Made by a program: the position numbers and the translations under genes | Assembly: GCA_900314635.1 (NCBI GenBank) | Contig: OMVY01000004.1 | Location: 128,878-192,877, forward strand | Origin: an uncultured Methanobrevibacter sp. | GTDB taxonomy: Archaea; Methanobacteriota; Methanobacteria; Methanobacteriales; Methanobacteriaceae | DNA: 64,000 nt | Direction: 5' to 3' | Shown: one piece after another, positions 22,852 through 52,191 of the stretch | Layout: every line of letters starts with the position of its first letter | Numbering within the stretch: position 1 is the stretch's first letter | The notes under the pieces: generated by a model | Databases searched by the model: none | What the model was told of the DNA's origin: nothing | The model's input: only the letters and a program-made list of their open reading frames with translations

Positions 22852-24468
22852 ATGACCACTACTTATTTTTTAAATGAATTTGCAGATTCCATCAGTTCAA
22901 ACAAGACTTTCACAATAGAGGAGCTTGCTCAAGCCATTGGAGGTGAAATCCACGGCTCTTGCGAATATAAGTCTCCTAAAGGATTCACAGGGATTTTTGA
23001 AACATTGAACGAGGCTGTAGAAGGGGATATAGTTATAAGGCACTGGATCAATGGAAAAGGTGTTGAAATAGCAAACGACAAGAATGTTGCATGCTTGATA
23101 ACACTCACACCAAAGGAAGACGCTTTGGAAGTGGCTAATAATCTTAAATTTCCTGTAATAGTGGTAGACAGGATTGAATTTGCAAATGCCTTCGCCCTTA
23201 AATGGGTGATAAGCAATCTCCTTCCAAATTCTAAAAGGGTGGTTATCAGCGGAACCAACGGAAAATCAACTAGTTCCCATTTGATTTATCACATATTATC
23301 CCATGCAGGATACAAGGTATTCACAAATACTGATGCTAAATCCGAATTCAATACTTTAATCGACCCTATGGTTGCCAAATTAATCAGCGAACATGCAATA
23401 GCCTGCCAGCCTGTTGATGCGCGAAGCCTTGACTGCATTGCAGACATTCCAGACAAGGAGTTCTTTGACTATCTTGTCATTGAGGTATCAGAAGTCCAGG
23501 GCTGGGGCGAGGACTTGATGGTGGACCATGCATTCATCATGTCTAGTGCTATCGAGCCTGACGTGGCTGTTGCAACAAATGTGGCAATGGATCATATAGG
23601 GCTTGTGAATTCAATCGAGGAAGTATTCCGTGAGACATCTGGAATTGTAAGGGCAACTGAAAAAGGAGGCGTCGTGCTGAATCTTGATGATGAGAATGTC
23701 CTGAAAATGGGAGATATGGTGAATCCTGGGGTTCAGACCTATTACACTTCAATGGACAAGGATTCTATCGAAAGCTACGATGCCGATGAAAAGTCAAAGG
23801 TATACTTTGATGATGACAGGAAAGCAATAATATATGATGGTGAGGCTATTCTCAAATACGAAGAGCTGCCTTTTACCAGCACCCACTTCATACGAAACAT
23901 ACTCTCTGCAATATCAGCATGCATATCCCTCGCCGTGCCGATTGAAGATATAGCAAGTGGAGTCAAGACATATAAGCCTCTTAGCCGCAGATTCACAAGA
24001 CTGCAGGATGACCCTATAATCATAGATGATTTCGCACATAATCCTGACGGCATCAAGAACACTGTAAGAGCAGCATCAGCATTGGTGGACGAGCAGGATA
24101 AGGATAATCTGCATGTGGTATGTGCAATCAGAGGCTCCAGAGGCAAGACTTTGAATGGATTGAATGCTAAGGCTCTAACTGAGGTCATCCATGATTTGAA
24201 ACATGAAACTGGCCGCAAGCTCAACTTGATTCTATCATCTTCTGCAGATGTTGTGGACCATTTGAATTTTGTCAATGAATGCGAGCGAAAGGTCTTCATG
24301 CATCATCTTGATGAGGGAAGGATAAAATACACACACTATGAGTATTTGTTCGATGCTTTAAGCGCTGTTCTGGAATCAGCTTGCGAAAATGATGTCATAT
24401 TGCTTATCGGAGCTCAGGGAATGGATCCTGCTGAAGAAGTTCTAAATGACATTCGCGGTTCAAATTAA
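22852..24468 (+). CDS. Pseudomurein peptide ligase (Mur ligase family)
   Basis: 538 residues. Mur-ligase three-domain layout: N-terminal part to about 120 (substrate binding), central ATPase with P-loop RVVISGTNGKSTSSHL (Gly at about 134), NTDAKSEFNTL, EVSEVQGWGEDLMVDHAF and a Mg-binding TNVAMDHIGLV, then the C-terminal domain with RRFTRLQDDPIIIDDFAHNPDGIKNTV. In Methanobacteriales, homologues of bacterial MurE/MurF build the pseudomurein peptide. The added amino acid (Glu, Ala, Lys) is not visible in the sequence. It lies 53 bp after the MraY-like gene, so likely one operon; SD GGGGATTA precedes ATG 22852. Good reference for a wall-synthesis locus. Confidence 0.88.
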   Translation: MTTTYFLNEFADSISSNKTFTIEELAQAIGGEIHGSCEYKSPKGFTGIFETLNEAVEGDIVIRHWINGKGVEIANDKNVACLITLTPKEDALEVANNLKFPVIVVDRIEFANAFALKWVISNLLPNSKRVVISGTNGKSTSSHLIYHILSHAGYKVFTNTDAKSEFNTLIDPMVAKLISEHAIACQPVDARSLDCIADIPDKEFFDYLVIEVSEVQGWGEDLMVDHAFIMSSAIEPDVAVATNVAMDHIGLVNSIEEVFRETSGIVRATEKGGVVLNLDDENVLKMGDMVNPGVQTYYTSMDKDSIESYDADEKSKVYFDDDRKAIIYDGEAILKYEELPFTSTHFIRNILSAISACISLAVPIEDIASGVKTYKPLSRRFTRLQDDPIIIDDFAHNPDGIKNTVRAASALVDEQDKDNLHVVCAIRGSRGKTLNGLNAKALTEVIHDLKHETGRKLNLILSSSADVVDHLNFVNECERKVFMHHLDEGRIKYTHYEYLFDALSAVLESACENDVILLIGAQGMDPAEEVLNDIRGSN

Positions 24469-24529: not shown

Positions 24530-26308
24530 ATGAGTGATTTTTGTTTTAGTTTTTTAGAGATGCAGTACAGGGATATCTACCTCGACTGCGCCAGGATGGA
24601 TAAGAACCTTATCGAAGGTGACGGCGTGGAGTCAATTCTCATTGCAGGTAGAATCGCCGAGAAGGTCACCAAGGCTATTTTTGAATATGAGGGCTTCAAG
24701 GAATCCAATGAAAGCCAGTACAAGCGTCTTGAAAAATTGAAAAATGTTAACATACTGCCAAAAAATATCTACAATGACTTTCGAGAGCTTAGAAGACTTA
24801 GAAATGATGTCTATCACAATACCTTGACAAGCAGGACTCTTGGATTGAACAGCAATCATGACAAAGGATACAATAAATATTCTAAGATCACTCATCAGGG
24901 CTCTTCAAGCGGATTGAAAGATTATAAATCCTCCTCAGGAGGCTTGAGGGACTATAAGACAGGATTCAGTGTGGAAAAGAAGGAAAAAATCAACAGGTCA
25001 TCCAGAACTAAGACTCCGAATCATATCAAGTTTCAAAAATCCAGGCCTAATTCAAAGTATGACCACTCTTCAAAATCTGATTCTCAGGATGGAAGCTCCT
25101 CCAAAACCAATTCAGATATTGAAAAGTCTTTTGAATATGATGGAAATTCAAACAGTCAATATTCCACTTCTTCAAGCTCTGCTTCAATGGATTTCAGTGC
25201 TGAAATGGTGGCTGCCCGTGAGGCACACAAGCTCACATTCAATATATGTGTCTGGTTTTATGTAAATTATTCCGGAGACAAGGATTTCATTCGCCCTCAA
25301 TACAAGCTCAATAAGAGAACACAGGACAGTGATTTTCTCATAAGGCTCAAATCAGCAGTAAATGATGGTGATGCATTCATCAAGCTTGCAAAGTCCAATC
25401 CGAATAATGAAATAATAAGCATACTTAGAGAGCTTCATGTTCCAAATGAAGAGGATGAAAAGGATGATGACCTTGTTTACGGACTGGATTCAAGCTTTAA
25501 GATAAGACAGCCCAACGGTCCTTATTCAAAGGAAGTGGGAATCCATTATGATGATAATGTCTTCATGTGGGAAGCCCGCCATGGCGGAAAGAGTCTGGGA
25601 TATTTCCAGTCATCCAAAGAAGCCTTTGAAGCAAGGGAAGTCTATATTCATTCACTGCCAATTCCTCCAAAGGTGGATGGAGGATATTCCAAGGAGAATG
25701 GAATATCATTCAGCAGGATTCAGAAGCTTTGGACAGCAAGTGTGAAAGGCCGTTTGATTGCATATTATCCTAGTGAAAAGGCTGCTGTTAAGGGAAGGAA
25801 AAAATATCTGAAGGCCCATGACCTTGTAGATATTGAAGTTGAGAATGGATATCGAACTGTGAGCAAAAAAGAATATGAAAACCTCAAATCAAAATCTCTC
25901 TCAGATTCAAAATCTAAAAAAGAATCTCTTGAAAGTTCCAATTCAAGGAAAGCTTCATCTAAAAGTTCCAGTTATCAAGATGGTTTCAAATCAAAATCAA
26001 ATGAGAATTTGAAACAAAAATCCTCTAAAAACTCTAAAAAATCCAAAGTTAAGGTTGAAAAAGGTTCCAAGGTCTCAAAAAATACTTCTAAAAAAGTCAA
26101 GGTTTCAGGAGGACAAAGAGTATCCAAGAAGAAGAAATCAAAGTCAAAAACCATTTCCAAAAGGAAATCATCAAAATATGAGGGGGTTTATTATGAAGAG
26201 GGCCTCTTTATGTGGAGTGCCGAGGTTGACGGCAAGCATCTGGGATTGTTCTCATCCGAGAAGGAAGCTCATCAAAAAAGAGAGGAATACTTGAACAGCA
26301 GGTCTTAG
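24530..26308 (+). CDS. HEPN-domain protein with three AP2-like repeats
   Basis: 592 residues from ATG 24530 (after GGTGTTAGA), not from the upstream in-frame ATG at 24446, which overlaps the previous gene. Residues about 1-110 are an all-helical HEPN-like domain with the R-x4-H motif R91-N-D-V-Y-H96 and an earlier acidic helix (AGRIAEKVTKAIFEYE). Then a Ser/Lys/Asp-rich linker; a helix region about 225-320. AP2/ERF-like motifs occur at about 329-375 (YSKEVGIHYDDNVFMWEAR, LGYFQSSKEAFEAREVY), 384-432 (YSKENGISF, LWTASVKGRLIAYY) and 547-592 (SKYEGVYYEE, WSAEVDGKHLGLF). A Lys/Ser tract of over 100 residues parts the last two. HEPN domains are often RNases; AP2-like units bind DNA or RNA. Function unknown. 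Coupled to the next gene. Confidence 0.6.
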   Translation: MSDFCFSFLEMQYRDIYLDCARMDKNLIEGDGVESILIAGRIAEKVTKAIFEYEGFKESNESQYKRLEKLKNVNILPKNIYNDFRELRRLRNDVYHNTLTSRTLGLNSNHDKGYNKYSKITHQGSSSGLKDYKSSSGGLRDYKTGFSVEKKEKINRSSRTKTPNHIKFQKSRPNSKYDHSSKSDSQDGSSSKTNSDIEKSFEYDGNSNSQYSTSSSSASMDFSAEMVAAREAHKLTFNICVWFYVNYSGDKDFIRPQYKLNKRTQDSDFLIRLKSAVNDGDAFIKLAKSNPNNEIISILRELHVPNEEDEKDDDLVYGLDSSFKIRQPNGPYSKEVGIHYDDNVFMWEARHGGKSLGYFQSSKEAFEAREVYIHSLPIPPKVDGGYSKENGISFSRIQKLWTASVKGRLIAYYPSEKAAVKGRKKYLKAHDLVDIEVENGYRTVSKKEYENLKSKSLSDSKSKKESLESSNSRKASSKSSSYQDGFKSKSNENLKQKSSKNSKKSKVKVEKGSKVSKNTSKKVKVSGGQRVSKKKKSKSKTISKRKSSKYEGVYYEEGLFMWSAEVDGKHLGLFSSEKEAHQKREEYLNSRS

Positions 26309-26320
26309 GTGATTAATATG

Positions 26321-27073
26321 ATGTCTGAATTTAAGTTTTGTCCGATGTGCGGTGTGGAAAGGAAAAGCAGTGAGCAGTTCTGCCACAGCTGCGATTTCGA
26401 ATACTTGACTGGCAGATATGTCAAGTCAGAAGATGGTGCTCAAAATTTATCTTATTCAATTGATGATGATCAAAATTTAGCCTATTCAGGTGATGGTGCT
26501 CAAGATATCATCAAGTCTGAAGTGAATAATTCTGAGAAGAAAATTGATGTTCAATTGGTATCCCAGGAAGAGTTCGCTGCAGCTAATGATTTAATTAAAT
26601 CATTGAGTGCTGAAATTAATGAGTCAATTGACAAGTGCTTGAATAAATTAGCCTTCGACTTGGAAAATGATGTGGATTTAAAAAAAGCCAATTCCGATTT
26701 CGATGCATGCATATTCATTAGTGAAAATTTGAATATTTCAACCATTAGTGATGTAGACAGTAATGAAAATTCGAATATTTTAGCCATTAATAGTGATATA
26801 GAATTTTCAGATTTGATTGAAGGGATTGATTATTCCAATGAAGAGCTTTTAAATGCTCAAAATACATTTTCTAATTGGATAGTATACAACCAGAGTCATT
26901 TGCCTGGTTTTATTATAAACAAGTACAAGGAGCCTGTAATTGCAAATATAAACAGGCTGAATTTGATTATAGAATCTTTGGGATCTATTGAAAATTATGA
27001 GGGTCTTGACAGGTTCTTGGATATTTTAAAGGATTATCTGAATAATCAGGAATCATTTTTGAATAGTTTTTAA
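26321..27073 (+). CDS. Zinc-ribbon protein coupled to the HEPN-AP2 gene
   Basis: About 250 residues. ATG 26321 is favoured: AGGTGATT at 26307-26314 overlaps the stop codon of the HEPN-AP2 gene, giving a six-base spacing (ATG 26318 would be too close). The start is a zinc ribbon, FKFCPMCGVERKSSEQFCHSCDF (C-x2-C, ten residues, C-x2-C). Residues 30-90 contain imperfect repeats around SYSIDDDQNLAYSGDGAQ. The rest (about 90-250) is helical, Asn/Asp/Ser-rich, with no known motif. Overlapping SD/stop means the two genes are translated as a unit, so the proteins may work together. No family recognised. Confidence 0.65.
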   Translation: MSEFKFCPMCGVERKSSEQFCHSCDFEYLTGRYVKSEDGAQNLSYSIDDDQNLAYSGDGAQDIIKSEVNNSEKKIDVQLVSQEEFAAANDLIKSLSAEINESIDKCLNKLAFDLENDVDLKKANSDFDACIFISENLNISTISDVDSNENSNILAINSDIEFSDLIEGIDYSNEELLNAQNTFSNWIVYNQSHLPGFIINKYKEPVIANINRLNLIIESLGSIENYEGLDRFLDILKDYLNNQESFLNSF

Positions 27074-43112: not shown

Positions 43113-46100
43113 ATGAAGGAGATTAAGATATCTTATTTGATTATCTTAATCGTTCTTGTCTTTTTATCTTTAAGCGTAGTTAGTGCGGCAAATAATGGTT
43201 TGAATGAAGATTTGAACGAATCCGATGTCTTATTGGCTTCAAGTGCGAGCAATGAGATTCCAATATCCTCTGAATTGGATTCGTCCCATTTGGATGATGC
43301 ATCCAATGACTTGAATGAAAGTGAGGGGGAAATTCAATCAGATGATGCTTCAAAAGCCGATGTGGATTCATCAAAGTCTGGTGGAGATTCTTCAAAATCC
43401 GATTTGAAACTAGGATCTGCTGATAATAGTAAACCGAATTATGAAAGTTCCCTGATCGTCATAAACCAATCAACTTATGCAAACTACTTCAACAGCTCCA
43501 ATGGGGCTATTTTAGATGGCAGCATTAAAGACGGAGACACTATCAAAATAGAAAGCATTTCAGATGCCCTATTTGTCATAGACAAGCAGGTAACCATCAT
43601 TTCAGATTCAGATGCTGTTTTGACTGATTGTCTGATTCGCCTTGTAAAGGGAAGTTCCAATTCGCAAATAAAGGGTCTTACAATAATAAATACTAAAGAA
43701 AAGCTTTCCGGATTTTATCTAAGCGGCATACATCTGATTGATTCCTGGAACAATACTATTGCCAATAACAAGATATCTGTAAGTGGAAAAAACTCCTTTG
43801 CAATAGCTTTGGAGAATTCCAGCTATGATGAAATTAGCAATAACGTATTTGAGTCCAAATCAAGCTATGTTATTCCGATAACAGGTTCCAGCCACAATCT
43901 AATAGCTGGAAACAATCTCACATCCGGCGGTTTAAATTTAATATATTATTGTCCTTATACAGTTGGAAACCTTTTCAGCCGATCTCAATACATCAAGTCA
44001 ACAGATAATGTTATTGTTAACAATACATTCACAAGCACTGATTCAAGCAGGAATCATGCTGTTTATCTGGATGGAGAAGTGGCGGGTTCTGGAAATCTCA
44101 TTGCAAATAATACCATCTCCAATGTTTTCTGTGGAATAAGGACTTCAGTCAAAGGTGCGGTTATTGAAAACAACACAATCCGTGATGTTTCAAAAGGAAT
44201 AATTGTTGAAAGCGATGATGTCACAGTGGACGGCAACCAGATTGAGATTGATTCTGGAATCGCTGCAATTGAATCAGCAGGAGATGATGTGAAAATCATA
44301 AACAACATCATTACCCTCGCCGGTGAGACTGCAGTAAACTTCACAGGTTCACGCAACATAATAGAAAACAACACTATAAATACTCAATCCGGAAGCGGAA
44401 TTTACTATTACAACTTCAACAGCAATGCTGGCTACAACAACATAAGCGGAAACCATATAAATTCCACAAATGCTATTGTAATGTCAGCATCACGTGACAG
44501 CACAAAAGACAGGATAGAAAATAATGATATCTTAACAGATGCTAATGCTATTTGTCTTGCAGGTCATTTAAATCGTCCAACAGTAATTAACAACAATATA
44601 ACATGTGCTATTAGCGGAGATTCCATAAAGATTTCCAGCTACAGCGACAAGGATCCAAGCTCTCCTCAAAACTACAGCGTTTACAACAATACAATCAATG
44701 GAGTCCAGTCAAATCTTACAGACGGACCTTGGATTAATCCAAACATGGAAAATCTTACAGTCTCATTGGAAAGAACAGTATTGGAAAGCGGAGAGTCTTT
44801 GATAATTTATTTGAAAGATAAAAATTCAAATCCTGTAATTGGTGCAGGCTTGTCAATCGAACTGAGAGGCAAGGTTTATAATCTAAGCACTGATGATTTA
44901 GGAAGCGTTTCACTTAAAATCAATGAGCCTGTTGGAAATTACGGATTGTCCGTTGCTTATGATGGCTTGGAAGATGTCTATAATTCATTGAACCAGTCAT
45001 TCAACATCAAAGTGACCCTTCCGACAGTATTTGATATTGGAAACACATATGTCTCAAAGGGAGGCTATTTCGAATTTAGATTGAAGGATTCAAATGGAAA
45101 TCTTCTAAAAAACAAGAAGGTCTCCATCACTTTAAATGGAAAGAAATACACAGTCTCCACATATTCCAATGGAAAAGCGAAAATTCAGGTAAATCTGTCT
45201 CCAAAACAGTATGATTTGTCTTTAAGCTACAGCGGAGAGTCAAATTACCTCTCCACAAGCAAGACTGTGAAAATCACTGTTGTAAACAAGGAAGCAGGAA
45301 CTCTTGATCCATCAAAGACCTATGTTGTAACTGAAAAGAACTTCAACACCTTCTTCAATAGCGAAGGAGAGTTGAAAAAGGCATTTGCAAATGCGAATCT
45401 GGTGTTTGTCGGAAGCTTCAGCAAAAAGTCAATAACCATTGGCCATCCGGTGAAGATCATTGGCTCTGGAGCCAAATTATACGATTCAACTGTGCATGTT
45501 TTATCTGATGGTGTTGTCGTCGATGGATTGAACATTGTCAACGAGAATGATGTGACTACCGCAACCCAGTCCGATTTAGCTAAAAACAATAGGAAATTCG
45601 GCATTCTGCTTGAGGGAGTAAAAAATGTTCAAGTAACCAATAACAACATCAATGTGGACAGTTATGACAATGCCTATGGCATTTATCTATACGAATCAAA
45701 CAACAATGTAATCAAGAACAATGTTGTAAAGGCAAAGGCTCGGAAGTTCACATCAGGAATCTTCCTTTATGACAGCGATTCAAATAAGATAGGAAGCAAC
45801 AAGGTGAGCGTCAATGGTACAGGCAAGGTTCACAAATACGAATCTTCAATAAAAATCGATGATGCGGCAAGCCTCATAGACTATGACTCTTCCGGCATGA
45901 TTGTTCCCGAGGTTTTCAAAACCTACGGCATAATATTGTTTGAATCATCAAAAAACGATATTTCATACAACAATGTAAGCGGAACAAGTGGCCTTGCAAA
46001 ATATTACACTGCTGTTGACGTATCCACAAATGCGGTTGTCGGAATAGACATATACTACGACAGCCATAACAACAAGGTACACCACAACAATGTGAAGATT

Positions 46101-47027
46101 GTTTCAAAGGATCCATACCTATATGGTCTTGGAGTGCTTGGAGATGAAACAGGACAAAGCGACACTGCGGCTCGAAACAATAATTTCTCCTACAATTACG
46201 TATATTTGAGGGGAACATACGACGCCACAGGAATAATCGTCGGTTTCAATTCAATAGGCACTGTGATTTACAAGAACAAGCTGGACATCCAGGCTACAAA
46301 TGTAACCTATGGAATTGTTCTGGAAGGTTCCAAGAAGTCTGTTGTAAGCGGAAACGACATAAAGGCCAAGGCAAGAATCAATTATCTTCTTGAAGGCTAT
46401 CACAGCGATGACAATCTGATTTCCCAGAACGTTCTGGATGCAAGAGGCGATTTTATTGCAAACGTGGTATTGGATAATTCCAACAACAATAGAATCATCA
46501 ACAACAGGCTGAGCTATTATACAAATGAGAACCTGTTTGATCTGGCTGCTTTAGGACTTTCCTCACACCCTGATGTGATTCTGCCGAGAAATACAGACTT
46601 CTACCAGCAGGGAAAGTCTACAGGAAATGTCTTTGAGGGAAACACCATAAGCGGTCCTCCTGGAAGCGGCGGATCCAATGGCAATGGAAGCTCAAATGGA
46701 GGCTCCAGCAATAATGGAAACTCCAATTCAAACGGAGACTCCTATCAGATTGATACAAATGGAACTGGCGATTTAGAAGGTTCCCAAAGCTCTGTTAGCG
46801 GAAACGGATTTTCATCCACTTCCGAAAACACTGAAGGAAACACCGTCGGTACTTCATCATCCGCTCCGGTTTCTGAAGCGGCAGCTTACAAGCTGGACGT
46901 CGATGAGATCGCTGCGGCTTCAAGGTCCTTGACTTCAATCAACCTATTGTTCCTCTGCATGATAGTTCTTCTTATCATAGCAGGTGCTTATGAGCTTTAC
47001 AAACAGTCCAGACGCGATATAAGGTAA
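43113..47027 (+). CDS. Adhesin-like protein, right-handed beta-helix, C-terminal anchor
   Basis: 1304 residues. Signal peptide (to about residue 26, VVSAAN), an acidic Ser/Asp/Asn-rich stretch to about 110, then long parallel beta-helix repeats of the pectate-lyase type with NNTI/NNxI motifs (e.g. IANNKISVSG, IENNTIRDVS, VTNNNINVD). Two Ig-like (invasin/Big) modules at about 545-640 and 645-740 (SVSLKINEPVGNYGLSVAYDG; SITLNGKKYTVSTYSNGKAKIQVNLSPKQYDLSLSYSG) part two beta-helix blocks. The end has a Gly/Ser/Asn linker (about 1185-1215), an Ser/Thr-rich stretch and a TM helix (LFLCMIVLLIIAGAYELY) with a positive tail (KQSRRDIR) that anchors it. Such ALPs are the dominant surface proteins of gut Methanobrevibacter; ligand unknown. 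The strong SD suggests high expression. Confidence 0.9.
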   Translation: MKEIKISYLIILIVLVFLSLSVVSAANNGLNEDLNESDVLLASSASNEIPISSELDSSHLDDASNDLNESEGEIQSDDASKADVDSSKSGGDSSKSDLKLGSADNSKPNYESSLIVINQSTYANYFNSSNGAILDGSIKDGDTIKIESISDALFVIDKQVTIISDSDAVLTDCLIRLVKGSSNSQIKGLTIINTKEKLSGFYLSGIHLIDSWNNTIANNKISVSGKNSFAIALENSSYDEISNNVFESKSSYVIPITGSSHNLIAGNNLTSGGLNLIYYCPYTVGNLFSRSQYIKSTDNVIVNNTFTSTDSSRNHAVYLDGEVAGSGNLIANNTISNVFCGIRTSVKGAVIENNTIRDVSKGIIVESDDVTVDGNQIEIDSGIAAIESAGDDVKIINNIITLAGETAVNFTGSRNIIENNTINTQSGSGIYYYNFNSNAGYNNISGNHINSTNAIVMSASRDSTKDRIENNDILTDANAICLAGHLNRPTVINNNITCAISGDSIKISSYSDKDPSSPQNYSVYNNTINGVQSNLTDGPWINPNMENLTVSLERTVLESGESLIIYLKDKNSNPVIGAGLSIELRGKVYNLSTDDLGSVSLKINEPVGNYGLSVAYDGLEDVYNSLNQSFNIKVTLPTVFDIGNTYVSKGGYFEFRLKDSNGNLLKNKKVSITLNGKKYTVSTYSNGKAKIQVNLSPKQYDLSLSYSGESNYLSTSKTVKITVVNKEAGTLDPSKTYVVTEKNFNTFFNSEGELKKAFANANLVFVGSFSKKSITIGHPVKIIGSGAKLYDSTVHVLSDGVVVDGLNIVNENDVTTATQSDLAKNNRKFGILLEGVKNVQVTNNNINVDSYDNAYGIYLYESNNNVIKNNVVKAKARKFTSGIFLYDSDSNKIGSNKVSVNGTGKVHKYESSIKIDDAASLIDYDSSGMIVPEVFKTYGIILFESSKNDISYNNVSGTSGLAKYYTAVDVSTNAVVGIDIYYDSHNNKVHHNNVKIVSKDPYLYGLGVLGDETGQSDTAARNNNFSYNYVYLRGTYDATGIIVGFNSIGTVIYKNKLDIQATNVTYGIVLEGSKKSVVSGNDIKAKARINYLLEGYHSDDNLISQNVLDARGDFIANVVLDNSNNNRIINNRLSYYTNENLFDLAALGLSSHPDVILPRNTDFYQQGKSTGNVFEGNTISGPPGSGGSNGNGSSNGGSSNNGNSNSNGDSYQIDTNGTGDLEGSQSSVSGNGFSSTSENTEGNTVGTSSSAPVSEAAAYKLDVDEIAAASRSLTSINLLFLCMIVLLIIAGAYELYKQSRRDIR

Positions 47028-47568
47028 TGAATGACAAGATGATGAATAGCATTCAAAATCGATATTTGAGGTGCTAAATATTAAATATTAGAAATGACAA
47101 AAAGGTACTTACTGCTTATGAAAATATAACATGCTCATGTTCCCTATTTTAATGGGCGGTGTTTGCGAACAATATTTTTGATTATGGGCTTAAATATTGT
47201 TCCAACGACTTTTTTAATTTTTTAAATTTAATTTTTAGCTATTTTACTATTTTTCTATTTTCAACGATTTTTATTAATTGCACTTTGACTAATTTTTGTT
47301 ATTTAGCTATTTTTTGATTATTTGCTGGTTTTTAACTTATTCATTGTTTTTACTTTTTTAGGCTATTTTTGCTGGTTTTTAACTTATTTTCTGAATTTAA
47401 TGATTTTTAACTATCTTCTTTTTTTAAAAACTTTTATTAATTACTTTAAATAAAAATAATTACATATTCAATTAAATTTTATTAATTATAAAATAAAATT
47501 TTAAATGATTTTAAATCTTAGTACAAATTAATAAAATTCTTTTTGAGAAAAATTATGGAGGATTGCTT
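47028..47568. other. Gap between the two giant ALPs with a hairpin
   Basis: 541 bp. The first 190 bp are less A/T-extreme and end in the hairpin 47167-47202; the rest consists of T-rich and A-rich tracts with GCTATTTTT and TTTTTAACTTAT words repeated loosely. No gene; a promoter for the second ALP must lie near 47400-47540. Confidence 0.4.
47167..47217 (+). terminator. Hairpin plus T-run downstream of ALP 1
   Basis: GAACAATATTT / AAATATTGTTC, perfect 11-bp stem with a 14-nt loop (TTGATTATGGGCTT), then CAACGAC and TTTTTTAATTTTTT. It is 140 bp after the ALP stop, so either a distal terminator or the end of a separate small RNA. Confidence 0.55.
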
Positions 47569-50500
47569 TTGAAATTGAAAAAAATAAGTATAATACTGAT
47601 TATTTTTATTGCATTCATGTCTATTGCTACTGCTAGCGCTATGGATGATAGCTCTTCAGTTTCACTAGATGATTCTTCTAATTATAATGCATCTGATCTT
47701 GACTTGAATAGTGCTGATGCTGGTTCAAATCTTCTTTCCAATCCGGATTCAATATCCTCAGCTGATTATGAGGATTCAGCTTCCACATCTCTTGAAGAAC
47801 TGGAGGTTTCTGATTTGGATTCAGAGTCAGGAGTTATTTCCAGTCATAATGAGGAAAGCGGCAATTCCAATAGTGCGGGTTCAGATTCAAATATCTTGTC
47901 CAGTTCAGGTTCTGATGTATTGTCCAGTTCAGGTTCTGATGTATTGTCCAGTTCAGGTTCTGATGTATTGTCAAGCAGCGGTTCAAATGTGCTGAGTGCA
48001 AGCGAGTTTGTAATATATGAAAAGGACTACAACACCTACTTCGGCTCAGATGGAAAGGCAAAGGCTTCAATAAACAAGGCTGGAAACATCATCAAGCTTG
48101 CTGGAACCTTTAAAAACAAGACTTTCATCTTCACAGTTCCTTTGACTGTGACAAGCTACAACAGCAACACACGTCTTTATGACTGTATTGTAAGCTTTGC
48201 AGGTGGAAGCGGCACAAGCTCAAATTATGCCAAGGTCTATGGCCTCAACATATACAGCAATGCAAGCAATGCCTTTCAGCGTCCTTGCATATACATAAAC
48301 GAGTTCGATTATGCCTATGTCTACAACAATACGGTTTTCAACACAGGCCAGTCAAGCTATGGAATCTATGTATACTATTCTAACCACTGCAATGTCACAA
48401 GAAACAATGTTCAAACTCGTGTGGGAATTGGAGGATGCTGGCAGCATGCTGGAATCTGCCTTACAGGATCTCATTACAACTACATAGCCAGTAATAACGT
48501 GAAAGTTGAGGATTCAAATGCAATCTACCTTTCCAGCTACAATGGTGCCGATTCAAACAACAACATAATCTTCAACAATACTGTCCGCTGCACCTTAAGC
48601 AGCTCAACTCCTTCTGTAACAGGACTCACTCAGCCTTCAGCATGGTGTTATCTCATCCATACAATGGGTGACAACAATACCATAATGAACAACACAATCC
48701 TCGACGGATTTGTTGGAATCTATGCCGAAGGCGCTTATAACAGGATAACCGGAAACCATATCTCAGGCCTTCACGGCGCATATATGGAAGGTACAGAAGG
48801 CAATGAAGGAGGAGAGACAGCTATTTACAGCAAAACCTATTCCTATGTTGCAAACAACACTATAAGAAACTGCAGCATACATACCGAACGCCTTGCAGGA
48901 GGTATTCAGGTATACCAGAACTCAATAGTCATTGACAATTATGTTGAAATAGTGAATAACGGCTATGCCATGTATGTCACTTCAAACTGCACAATCAAGA
49001 ACAATACCTTAATCAGCCTGGGCGGAGGCATAGATGTTGCAAGACTGGATAATTACAACAATACAATCACAGGCAACAACATCACCTGCCAGAATGGCTA
49101 CAACATCAAGATTACAGCATCAGGCAACCTTATTGAAAACAACACCCTGGTGAATACAAACAGTGCAAGCGGAACCAAGATATCTGTTGTCTATATTTAT
49201 GGAAAACAGGCAATGGACAACAACAGGATAATATCCAACACCATTATAACAAATACTGCTTATGTGGCATATCTTCAGGGAAATGCAACCAACACATTAA
49301 TAGCATATAATCATATAACAACCAATAATTCAAATCCGTTTTATGAGAGAAATTATGGTAGTGGTGCAAGCAATGCCCAGTATCCAGTAAACACAACAAT
49401 AATAAATGATGATATCACACTTCCAATCATGGAAGTGAACATTACCGATGAAAGCTATTCCATCTATTTCGAGGATAACGGCTATTTAATAAATGGAGCT
49501 CTTCCTGAAAAGCCTGGACTTCAAACTGTCTTGATAATTCATAACATTACAAACAAGAGCATGATCTTTAACAGCAGGGTGTCTATCGACGGCCAGTCAC
49601 TGGGAAATATCACTAATTGCACAATAAGTTTTGAACCAGGCTCATCAGGCTCAAAGCTTGAAAATCTTATCATGAATTATGTTCATGATGGTGAAAACAG
49701 TTTGAATCTGATTTCAATAGGTCGTGATGTTTCCAATCTGACCATTTCCAACAACAATCTCTTCATTCGGTCTCTTAGCGAATCACTATCCAATATCAAA
49801 GCAATTGACATGGAAAAGGGAGGAAATTCAAACATCGACATTCTAAACAATATGATAAATGTTGAAGCAATGGATTCCAATATCTACGGCATTTACATAT
49901 CCTCTTTCGACAGGCAGATGGATGATGTTTATGTTTTGAATAACGAGATAGATGTTTCTGGATTTAACAAAGTTGTGGGAATAAGCTTGAATGGAGTAAA
50001 CGACTCAAAAATCGAGTCCAATGCAATATCTTCAAAATCATCAGGCGATCTCCCATCTTCCAATGCTTATGGAATCGAAGGATATGACTTGAATGGAATT
50101 GAAATCCTGGGAAACTCATTCGATATTGAAAGCGGGCTTTTATCCTACTGCATCTCTTTGAATAATCCCCAAAACACAGCTATTCATAACAACAGCCTCG
50201 ATGCCAAAGGCAGCGGAGCTATTGGAATAGATTTGACAGGTTCCAGCAACAGAGCTAATAAAATATATGAAAACACTGTCAGAATCATCGGCGGAGACTT
50301 TTCAGATATTGATGCCATTACTACTGTTGGAAACTATCTTGTTTCAATTGGTGATGATGTTGATGCAAGTGTTTATAATAATACTTTCATTGTCTTGAAC
50401 AGCACTCCTTTGAAGGCTTCACAATCCAAATTGAATGGAAACTCATTCCTTGTCAATGATGAGACAATCAATGTCCTCTTTGACAGTGTTGATGGAGTTA

Positions 50501-52191
50501 TGACCATCCGTCCGGATTCAAGTGTAAAATCAGGGGACATACTCGTATTTGATTCCCTTGATAATGAAGGTTTAATCAGATTCGTCTTGGATATTCCATT
50601 GACCGTGAAAAGCTCAAATGACGAGCTTGTCTTGAGCAACATGGAATTTGAATTGAATAATGTTAAAGGATTCACATTCGACCATATCGTATTGAACAAC
50701 ACATTAGGAGATTCAGCTATTGTCTTGAAGGGATGTTTTGATGTTCTTCTTGATGGAATCATCATCGAAGCGAATGCTGGAGATTACACAGGTGTTGGCA
50801 TAATCGATTCAGGCAACGTATCAATGATCTACAGCACATTCAATGTCACAAGCTCCAATATTGCATGTCTTGTCAAATCTTCAAGTTCATCCAATCTGGA
50901 CATTTCCAATAATCGTCTGGAAGCCCTTTCAAAATCTGCTTACGCTTTTATAGGCAGTGATGTTGTAGGTGCAGTATTCAAATCCAATATAATGAGCATT
51001 CGTGGAAGCGGAAATGCTGTGGAAAATGGATTTAATGTTCTTCAAGCTGGAATCTACTTGAACGGCACTTCATCAGACATTTCCATTGCAGATAATGAAA
51101 TCAAGTCTTCTTATGAACCTGGAGGAGATTATGCAATTGTTCTGGATTTAAATGGACAATCCTCAAACATATCTCTTTCAGGCAATGATCTTGCTTCAAA
51201 TAATTCCTCTTCTTTAGGAATATGGGCAATCTGTTTAGGCGATGATGTTGATGAGATTTCAAACAAGATAAGCATATCTTCAACAGCTCCAGTTGACAAG
51301 ACGGTCACAGAATTTGAATTTGCCAACATAAGTTCAATTTTCACTGTTGTCTTAAACAATGGAACCAAGACATTAGGCGGATTTTTCAAATTCAGACTAG
51401 CTACTGTCGACGGCGATGCACTTGCCAATAGAAATGTCTCTTTAAGATTCAAAGGCGTCGATTATCACCTTATAACAGATGATGAGGGATATGCGAATGT
51501 AACACTTGCCTACGACTATGGATACAATGGTCCTATCAGCTTGAAATATGATGGTGAATATCCTTTATATGCAGCAAGCACCAATGCTTATGTCAATGCT
51601 CCGAAATTCCAAACCAAGATTGTCGCATCCAATATGAATACACAGACACTTGTGAATGAGGCATACAATACAGATTCCTACTACAAGTTCTACTTAAGAG
51701 ATATAAACAACAAGGCTCTTGTAGGAAAAACAGTCAAAGTCACTTTAAATGGCAGGACTTACAATGTGAAAACAGACTCAAAGGGCATGGCAAAGTTGCA
51801 GGTAAATCTTAAAACTGCAAAGAATTATGATATCAAGTTCTATTTTGCAGGAGACAATTATTATGCTGCTTCTCAGGCATCTGCCAAAATCAAGGCTGTT
51901 AAAAACAAAGTTGTGATAAAGGCTCCGACCGTCAAGGTCAAAAGGTCCAAGGCAGGCAGGTTCTATGTCAAGGTTACTCTCAAGAGCAAGTCCGGAAAGG
52001 CTTTAATCAAGAAGACAGTCAAGCTCACTATAAACAGTAAGACCTACAAGGTAAAAACCAGCAAGAAGGGAGTTGCCAAGTTCAAGGTCAAGCTGCCTAA
52101 GAAGCGCAAGACCTACAAATACAAGGTCAAGTTCTCAGGTGACAAGCAGAACTATGCCAAATCAAAGAAAGGCAAGGTCAAGGTATTATAA
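47569..52191 (+). CDS. Giant adhesin-like protein with Ser-Gly repeats and Lys-rich end
   Basis: About 1540 residues. Start TTG 47569 suits GGAGGATT at 47557-47564; TTG 47563 would lie inside it. After a signal peptide (ATASAM) and an acidic Ser/Asp stretch, an eight-residue LSSSGSDV repeat occurs about four times (24-bp DNA repeat). Long beta-helix blocks with NNTI/N-x-S/T motifs follow (about 150-1250), then two Ig-like modules near 1250-1450 (FKFRLATVDGDALANRNVSLRFKGVDY; YKFYLRDINNKALVGKTVKVTLNGRTYNVKTDSKG). The last 100 residues are an Ig-like Lys-rich module (KTVKLTINSKTYKVKTSKKGVAKFKVKLP). There is no TM at the end; the basic tail probably binds the acidic wall. Confidence 0.9.
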   Translation: MKLKKISIILIIFIAFMSIATASAMDDSSSVSLDDSSNYNASDLDLNSADAGSNLLSNPDSISSADYEDSASTSLEELEVSDLDSESGVISSHNEESGNSNSAGSDSNILSSSGSDVLSSSGSDVLSSSGSDVLSSSGSNVLSASEFVIYEKDYNTYFGSDGKAKASINKAGNIIKLAGTFKNKTFIFTVPLTVTSYNSNTRLYDCIVSFAGGSGTSSNYAKVYGLNIYSNASNAFQRPCIYINEFDYAYVYNNTVFNTGQSSYGIYVYYSNHCNVTRNNVQTRVGIGGCWQHAGICLTGSHYNYIASNNVKVEDSNAIYLSSYNGADSNNNIIFNNTVRCTLSSSTPSVTGLTQPSAWCYLIHTMGDNNTIMNNTILDGFVGIYAEGAYNRITGNHISGLHGAYMEGTEGNEGGETAIYSKTYSYVANNTIRNCSIHTERLAGGIQVYQNSIVIDNYVEIVNNGYAMYVTSNCTIKNNTLISLGGGIDVARLDNYNNTITGNNITCQNGYNIKITASGNLIENNTLVNTNSASGTKISVVYIYGKQAMDNNRIISNTIITNTAYVAYLQGNATNTLIAYNHITTNNSNPFYERNYGSGASNAQYPVNTTIINDDITLPIMEVNITDESYSIYFEDNGYLINGALPEKPGLQTVLIIHNITNKSMIFNSRVSIDGQSLGNITNCTISFEPGSSGSKLENLIMNYVHDGENSLNLISIGRDVSNLTISNNNLFIRSLSESLSNIKAIDMEKGGNSNIDILNNMINVEAMDSNIYGIYISSFDRQMDDVYVLNNEIDVSGFNKVVGISLNGVNDSKIESNAISSKSSGDLPSSNAYGIEGYDLNGIEILGNSFDIESGLLSYCISLNNPQNTAIHNNSLDAKGSGAIGIDLTGSSNRANKIYENTVRIIGGDFSDIDAITTVGNYLVSIGDDVDASVYNNTFIVLNSTPLKASQSKLNGNSFLVNDETINVLFDSVDGVMTIRPDSSVKSGDILVFDSLDNEGLIRFVLDIPLTVKSSNDELVLSNMEFELNNVKGFTFDHIVLNNTLGDSAIVLKGCFDVLLDGIIIEANAGDYTGVGIIDSGNVSMIYSTFNVTSSNIACLVKSSSSSNLDISNNRLEALSKSAYAFIGSDVVGAVFKSNIMSIRGSGNAVENGFNVLQAGIYLNGTSSDISIADNEIKSSYEPGGDYAIVLDLNGQSSNISLSGNDLASNNSSSLGIWAICLGDDVDEISNKISISSTAPVDKTVTEFEFANISSIFTVVLNNGTKTLGGFFKFRLATVDGDALANRNVSLRFKGVDYHLITDDEGYANVTLAYDYGYNGPISLKYDGEYPLYAASTNAYVNAPKFQTKIVASNMNTQTLVNEAYNTDSYYKFYLRDINNKALVGKTVKVTLNGRTYNVKTDSKGMAKLQVNLKTAKNYDIKFYFAGDNYYAASQASAKIKAVKNKVVIKAPTVKVKRSKAGRFYVKVTLKSKSGKALIKKTVKLTINSKTYKVKTSKKGVAKFKVKLPKKRKTYKYKVKFSGDKQNYAKSKKGKVKVL
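47895..47992 (+). repeat. 24-bp coding repeat in the second ALP
   Basis: Three almost identical 24-bp units (TTGTCCAGTTCAGGTTCTGATGTA) and one divergent fourth, encoding LSSSGSDV. The last unit uses different codons (AGCAGCGGTTCA), i.e. older than the others. Confidence 0.85.

Follow-up and report, generated by a model that had tools for sequence, protein, structure and literature searches.

DUF4145 is a family of the HEPN superfamily in which the HEPN motif is retained in about 80% of members, and its surveyed fusions carry restriction, helicase, zinc-ribbon and TM modules (PMC3710099). In phosphorothioate restriction, a HEPN domain on DndF has been described as a co-effector (PMC10853773). 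The gene analysed here, ORF1, lies in a window of 64,000 nt from an uncultured Methanobrevibacter sp. and carries a HEPN domain at the N-terminus, followed by three AP2-like units; a second gene, ORF2, encodes a zinc-ribbon protein (Table 1). The HEPN/AP2-like fusion was unfamiliar to the earlier note, and no published text naming both a HEPN domain and an AP2 domain was found in the literature searched. The architecture, HEPN plus AP2-like repeats with the HEPN bundle interrupted by a long disordered insert, is apparently undescribed. A longer ORF1 frame with an ATG at 24446 exists; this start is probably unused, because an M(S/G)-F start is common to the inner-clade orthologs.

Table 1. Features of the locus and of the large related proteins. 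Positions are those of the window unless a locus is named.
Feature	Position	Strand	Basis
ORF1, HEPN (DUF4145-like) domain and three AP2-like units, 592 aa	24530..26308	+	
HEPN part 1, residues 1-100, R-N-D-V-Y-H at 91-96	24530..24829	+	
Disordered insert within HEPN, residues 103-221	24836..25192	+	pLDDT <50
HEPN part 2, last helix, residues 222-250, including H233	25193..25279	+	
AP2-like unit 1, residues 331-379, acidic	25520..25666	+	unit HMM, model
AP2-like unit 2, residues 384-432, basic	25679..25825	+	model
Lys/Ser-rich linker, residues 466-545	25925..26164	+	pLDDT <50 at 466-542
AP2-like unit 3, residues 546-592, acidic, nearly invariant	26165..26305	+	unit HMM, model
ORF2, 251 aa, ATG 26318, Cys4 zinc ribbon and helical domain	26318..27073	+	
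Very large HEPN-AP2 protein	L063:1389-6077	-	
Very large HEPN-AP2 protein	L065:2074-6231	-	
Very large HEPN-AP2 protein	L066:751-3345	+	

The RNDVYH sequence reported earlier was found at residues 91-96 of ORF1, as claimed. It was calculated that R-x4-H arises by chance in 49% of ORF1 shuffles and R-x4-6-H in 87%, so the motif alone was rejected as evidence of a HEPN domain, and conservation and fold were examined. Residues R88, R91, N92, H96 and H233 were invariant in 16/16 aligned ORF1 orthologs, and R91-N92-x3-H96 has the R-x4-6-H form with a polar residue after the Arg that characterizes HEPN domains. The ORF1 protein (P0001) matched DUF4145 at E 0.018, under the Pfam cut-off; across the subfamily, DUF4145 (PF13643) was matched by 13/13 HEPN domains at E <= 1 (best 2.5e-7), and weak HepT matches were obtained for 4/13. 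NCBIfam PRK11448 (HsdR N-terminus) matched residues 5-101 of ORF1 with an E of 2.4e-9. The AlphaFold (AF2) model exhibited a confident helical bundle, with helices at 14-28, 32-54, 63-72 and 78-95 and a final helix at 224-247 after the insert, all with pLDDT of about 90-95. The top PDB matches of the model in Foldseek were HepT/HEPN proteins (prob 0.98-0.92, E 0.5-0.8); the Foldseek E values were weak, 0.5-1, probably because the query was long and partly disordered. Because the residues are invariant in orthologs, relatives match DUF4145 and the model is a helical bundle, the R-x4-H of ORF1 is counted as a HEPN site. Thus the HEPN fold, for which structure prediction and HMM searches had been proposed, was found, but it is not limited to residues 1-110 as supposed: the last helix lies beyond an insert of ~120 residues, and the two HEPN parts are contiguous in relatives.

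The three segments said to follow the AP2/ERF plan are real. Each was modelled as strand-strand-strand-helix with pLDDT of about 90, the order of a three-stranded sheet packed on one helix (unit 1: strands 338-341, 346-351 and 354-359, helix 362-375; unit 2: strands 392-395, 400-405 and 408-413, helix 416-429; unit 3: strands 553-556, 561-566 and 569-574, helix 577-591). The best PDB match of the unit profile was the AP2 domain of plant WRI1 (E 0.0033), and a further match of the profile was to AP2IX-6, an AP2 protein from the mitochondrial ribosome of Toxoplasma. By iterated profile search, three units were detected in every full-length ortholog; in G014 a premature stop, which may be a MAG error, truncates the third unit (L083:5918-7492). 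PF00847 was matched by 2/23 units (best E 5.9e-4), and units of related proteins matched it at E values from 9.1e-7 to 4.9e-5, the best related unit scoring 29.5 bits against a curated cut-off of 33.3. None of ORF1's own units reached Pfam AP2. The search of its own genome with PF00847 gave no match; the assignment to AP2 is therefore based on the fold and on intermediate sequences. From these matches, "AP2-like" is the correct term, and "AP2 family member" would go beyond what matches below the cut-off allow.

DNA-binding AP2 domains are expected to be basic, and units 1 and 3 are without that character. Viewed by net charge only, which is how the basic sheet was assessed, units 1 and 3 are both -2 and unit 2 is +8; the linker is +23. 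The charge signs were kept in the aligned orthologous units. Two KVKV-x2-G-x-(K/R)-V repeats were recognized in the linker in the ortholog alignment. The earlier idea of a nucleic-acid-targeting RNase is still the best reading of the sequence, with the qualification that only unit 2 and the linker are basic.

The insert contains a clade-conserved motif, GGLRDYKTGF, at residues 137-146. It is present in orthologs of the partner-bearing clade and absent from L078, L079 and L080; this co-occurrence with the partner fits a docking site, as judged from one phylogenetic split. The reading of the second gene as encoding a zinc-ribbon protein was supported: the Cys4 set of ORF2 (C8, C11, C22 and C25) is invariant. 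For its helical domain, Foldseek gave no convincing match to a known fold. Full-length relatives of ORF2 were found only beside ORF1. The conservation of the partner next to ORF1 was seen in part: ORF2 is intact in 11 genomes (in one of them truncated by the contig end), but it is a pseudogene in G001 and broken in G017, and a search of G009 and G010 did not find it, with ORF1 intact in these last four genomes. In the remaining genomes ORF2 was lost to contig ends. The Shine-Dalgarno sequence overlapping the ORF1 stop codon is present in this genome, where GGTGA overlaps the stop, the ORF2 ATG follows within a few nt and the genes are 9 nt apart. However, it is not general, as the spacing is 9-17 nt in 5/12 pairs and 70-275 nt in 7/12. 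Translational coupling was therefore rejected as a defining feature. ORF2 evolves faster than ORF1, has degenerated or is missing in genomes with an intact ORF1, and lies close behind it in only 5/12 pairs; for these reasons it is regarded as an accessory and not an antitoxin.

ORF1 orthologs were found in 18/19 genomes of its GTDB genus; the genome without one, G018, is 62% complete and has a large paralog. Outside the genus no ortholog was found, either in the family (120 other genomes) or in the phylum (133 other genomes searched). Named records with ORF1 include M. olleyae as well as Methanobrevibacter or archaeal MAGs from rumen, goat, reindeer and horse. Searches of phage, plasmid and viral-contig collections for ORF1 returned none, and an origin from such elements was discarded; a scan of the viral collection with a sister protein carrying AP2-like units also gave no match. 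The locus shows conserved synteny, with pseudomurein genes next to it, in nearly all of the 19 genus genomes. In the main clade, genes for an ATP-grasp protein, a MraY-like transferase and a Mur-like ligase lie upstream, and 4-OT, CapA-like, dCTP deaminase and HisG genes lie downstream, names that were assigned by reading of the neighbour sequences; in G009 and G010, which are divergent, ORF1 adjoins the CapA-like gene only. In some species an Rpn/PD-(D/E)XK-type nuclease-like gene is inserted between the 4-OT and CapA-like genes (L072:7436-8272, L074:8269-9099 and L084:2993-3862); this insertion is absent from the window. Elsewhere in the window, positions 43113-52191 encode two putative surface/adhesin-like proteins that are very large and rich in repeats.

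The pairwise dN/dS was 0.00-0.08 for HEPN residues 1-100 and 0.00-0.14 for the AP2-like units; it reached 0.38 in the insert and was 0.09-0.30 for ORF2. The folded parts of ORF1 are under very strong purifying selection. By these genome comparisons, ORF1 is a genus-wide core gene, best read as chromosomal and vertically inherited.

The same HEPN subfamily was found fused N-terminally to DndF/DptF in Methanobacteriaceae (L064, L067, L069 and L091-L095), with L064 matching DndF at E 3.4e-154. In the DndF-fused L067, L094 and L095 the catalytic Arg is replaced by C, A or G. The fold thus persists in several of these proteins without the Arg, so that conservation of this residue in ORF1 cannot be put down to the fold. 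Subfamily members were also found fused to a TM protein (L068) and, in degenerate form, to a DinG-like helicase (L090). The L068 protein (1792-2781) combines HEPN with a TM segment and, at the C-terminus, a Cys motif resembling an Ada-type metal-binding domain. Large HEPN-AP2 paralogs with six to eight units occur in G003, G013 and G018; those of L063 and L065 adjoin a conserved gene of unknown function (L063:541-1284 and L065:863-1990). In the HEPN tree, the core gene, the large paralogs, the TM protein and one DndF clade grouped together, without a branching order among them. AP2-like units without HEPN were found in restriction/Dnd-like loci, where the proteins (L147:738-2120, L148:2223-5042 and L149:2482-3216) lie between DNA methylases, helicases and DndD/DndE-like genes; they are candidate unnamed components of restriction/Dnd islands. 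Zinc ribbons accompany the AP2-like units in the L147 and L148 proteins. We infer that the HEPN domain of ORF1 descends from DndF-type co-effectors, a direction that goes beyond the branching order of the tree.

Taken together, we give an even chance to ORF1 being a HEPN endoRNase of restriction ancestry that has become a core gene of the genus and is tethered to nucleic acid. The HEPN domain would dimerise, as in HEPN RNases generally, and R91 and H96 would cut RNA. Basic unit 2 and the Lys-rich linker may tether the enzyme on nucleic acid, and the acidic units 1 and 3 would more likely bind protein or maintain autoinhibition. In species that have the zinc-ribbon partner, this protein might tune activity through the disordered insert, which lies beside the active site and carries GGLRDYKTGF. 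The gene would have passed from HEPN co-effector domains of Dnd/restriction systems to a housekeeping or standing innate-immunity RNase of the genus. A fuller proposal is tentative, and we think it probably not right in every part: that a restriction HEPN co-effector was domesticated once at the Methanobrevibacter genus root, fused to AP2-like modules, and is now an indispensable RNase for RNA turnover or standing antiviral sensing, gated by the disordered loop that adjoins the active site and additionally, in one clade, by the zinc-ribbon partner. An RNase domain apparently from a conflict system seems to have become fixed as a core gene in this genus of methanogens from rumen and gut. Two point mutations would suffice to test the hypothesis, given how exactly the active site is conserved.

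A housekeeping RNase in RNA processing or associated with the ribosome, its AP2-like units docking on rRNA or the ribosome, seems unlikely. The strong constraint on a core gene would suit such a role, as would the match of the unit profile to AP2IX-6, and HEPN proteins with comparable roles are covered in PMC3710099; but unlike most ribosome-biogenesis factors ORF1 is absent from the other genera of the family, and it has no conserved translation-gene neighbours.

We consider it improbable that ORF1 and ORF2 form a toxin-antitoxin or abortive-infection pair, in which the zinc-ribbon protein restrains a HEPN-AP2 toxin. HEPN toxins are common in such pairs, both modules have relatives in defence loci, the two genes are close here with the Shine-Dalgarno sequence in the stop codon, and the partner was found nowhere but beside ORF1. 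The supposed antitoxin is nevertheless dispensable, which makes the pair unlikely: where the partner has decayed or was not found, the ORF1 active site is intact. The wide spacing of most pairs, the fixed syntenic position with dN/dS near 0 in folded parts and the PADLOC-DB search, in which neither ORF1 nor ORF2 gave a match at E <= 0.01, also argue against it. Thus, of the defence pair suggested in the earlier note, what survives is a defence link as ancestry, because the same HEPN subfamily sits on DndF and AP2-like units occur in restriction/Dnd islands; the pair itself is made less likely by ORF1 being a syntenic core gene under strong purifying selection with a dispensable partner.

A HEPN domain with an intact motif could be a mere scaffold, and ORF1 would then be a non-catalytic regulator in which HEPN serves dimerisation and the AP2-like units and Lys-rich linker bind DNA. 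The basic charge of unit 2 and the linker would agree with this, and the Arg-less DndF-fused HEPN relatives show that the fold outlasts catalysis; such a regulator is as improbable as the toxin-antitoxin pair, since R91, N92 and H96, none of which a scaffold needs, are invariant in all aligned core orthologs, down to 46% overall identity. A mobile defence pair was ruled out by the synteny within the genus and the absence from phage and plasmid collections.

In comparison with known systems, the units of ORF1 share with AP2/ERF domains (PF00847) the G-(I/V) start, the W on strand 2, the L-G-x-(F/Y) of strand 3, the A-x3-R helix and the predicted fold, and differ in scoring under the cut-off, in the acidic character of units 1 and 3 and in a shorter loop between strands 2 and 3. 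HepT of the MntA-HepT pair was the best fold match. ORF1 differs from that system in lacking the tyrosine of R-x4-H-x-Y (RNDVYHNT) and a nucleotidyltransferase partner, ORF2 being a Cys4 zinc ribbon with a helical domain, and the antitoxin is not kept with the toxin as in MntA-HepT, since G001, G017, G009 and G010 keep ORF1 and not an intact partner. The HEPN-DndF/DptF proteins of phosphorothioate restriction (PMC10853773) have the closest HEPN sequences found outside HEPN-AP2 proteins and likewise carry HEPN at the N-terminus; in contrast, ORF1 is fixed as a core gene, lacks an ATPase core and is not flanked by DndG/H. With the DUF4145 family (PF13643; PMC3710099), ORF1 shares the HEPN helical bundle, R-N-x3-H and the N-terminal placement in a multidomain protein. 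The survey of that family makes no mention of AP2, and ORF1 differs from the surveyed proteins in having no ATPase or DNase, in its three AP2-like units and in a bundle split by a disordered insert.
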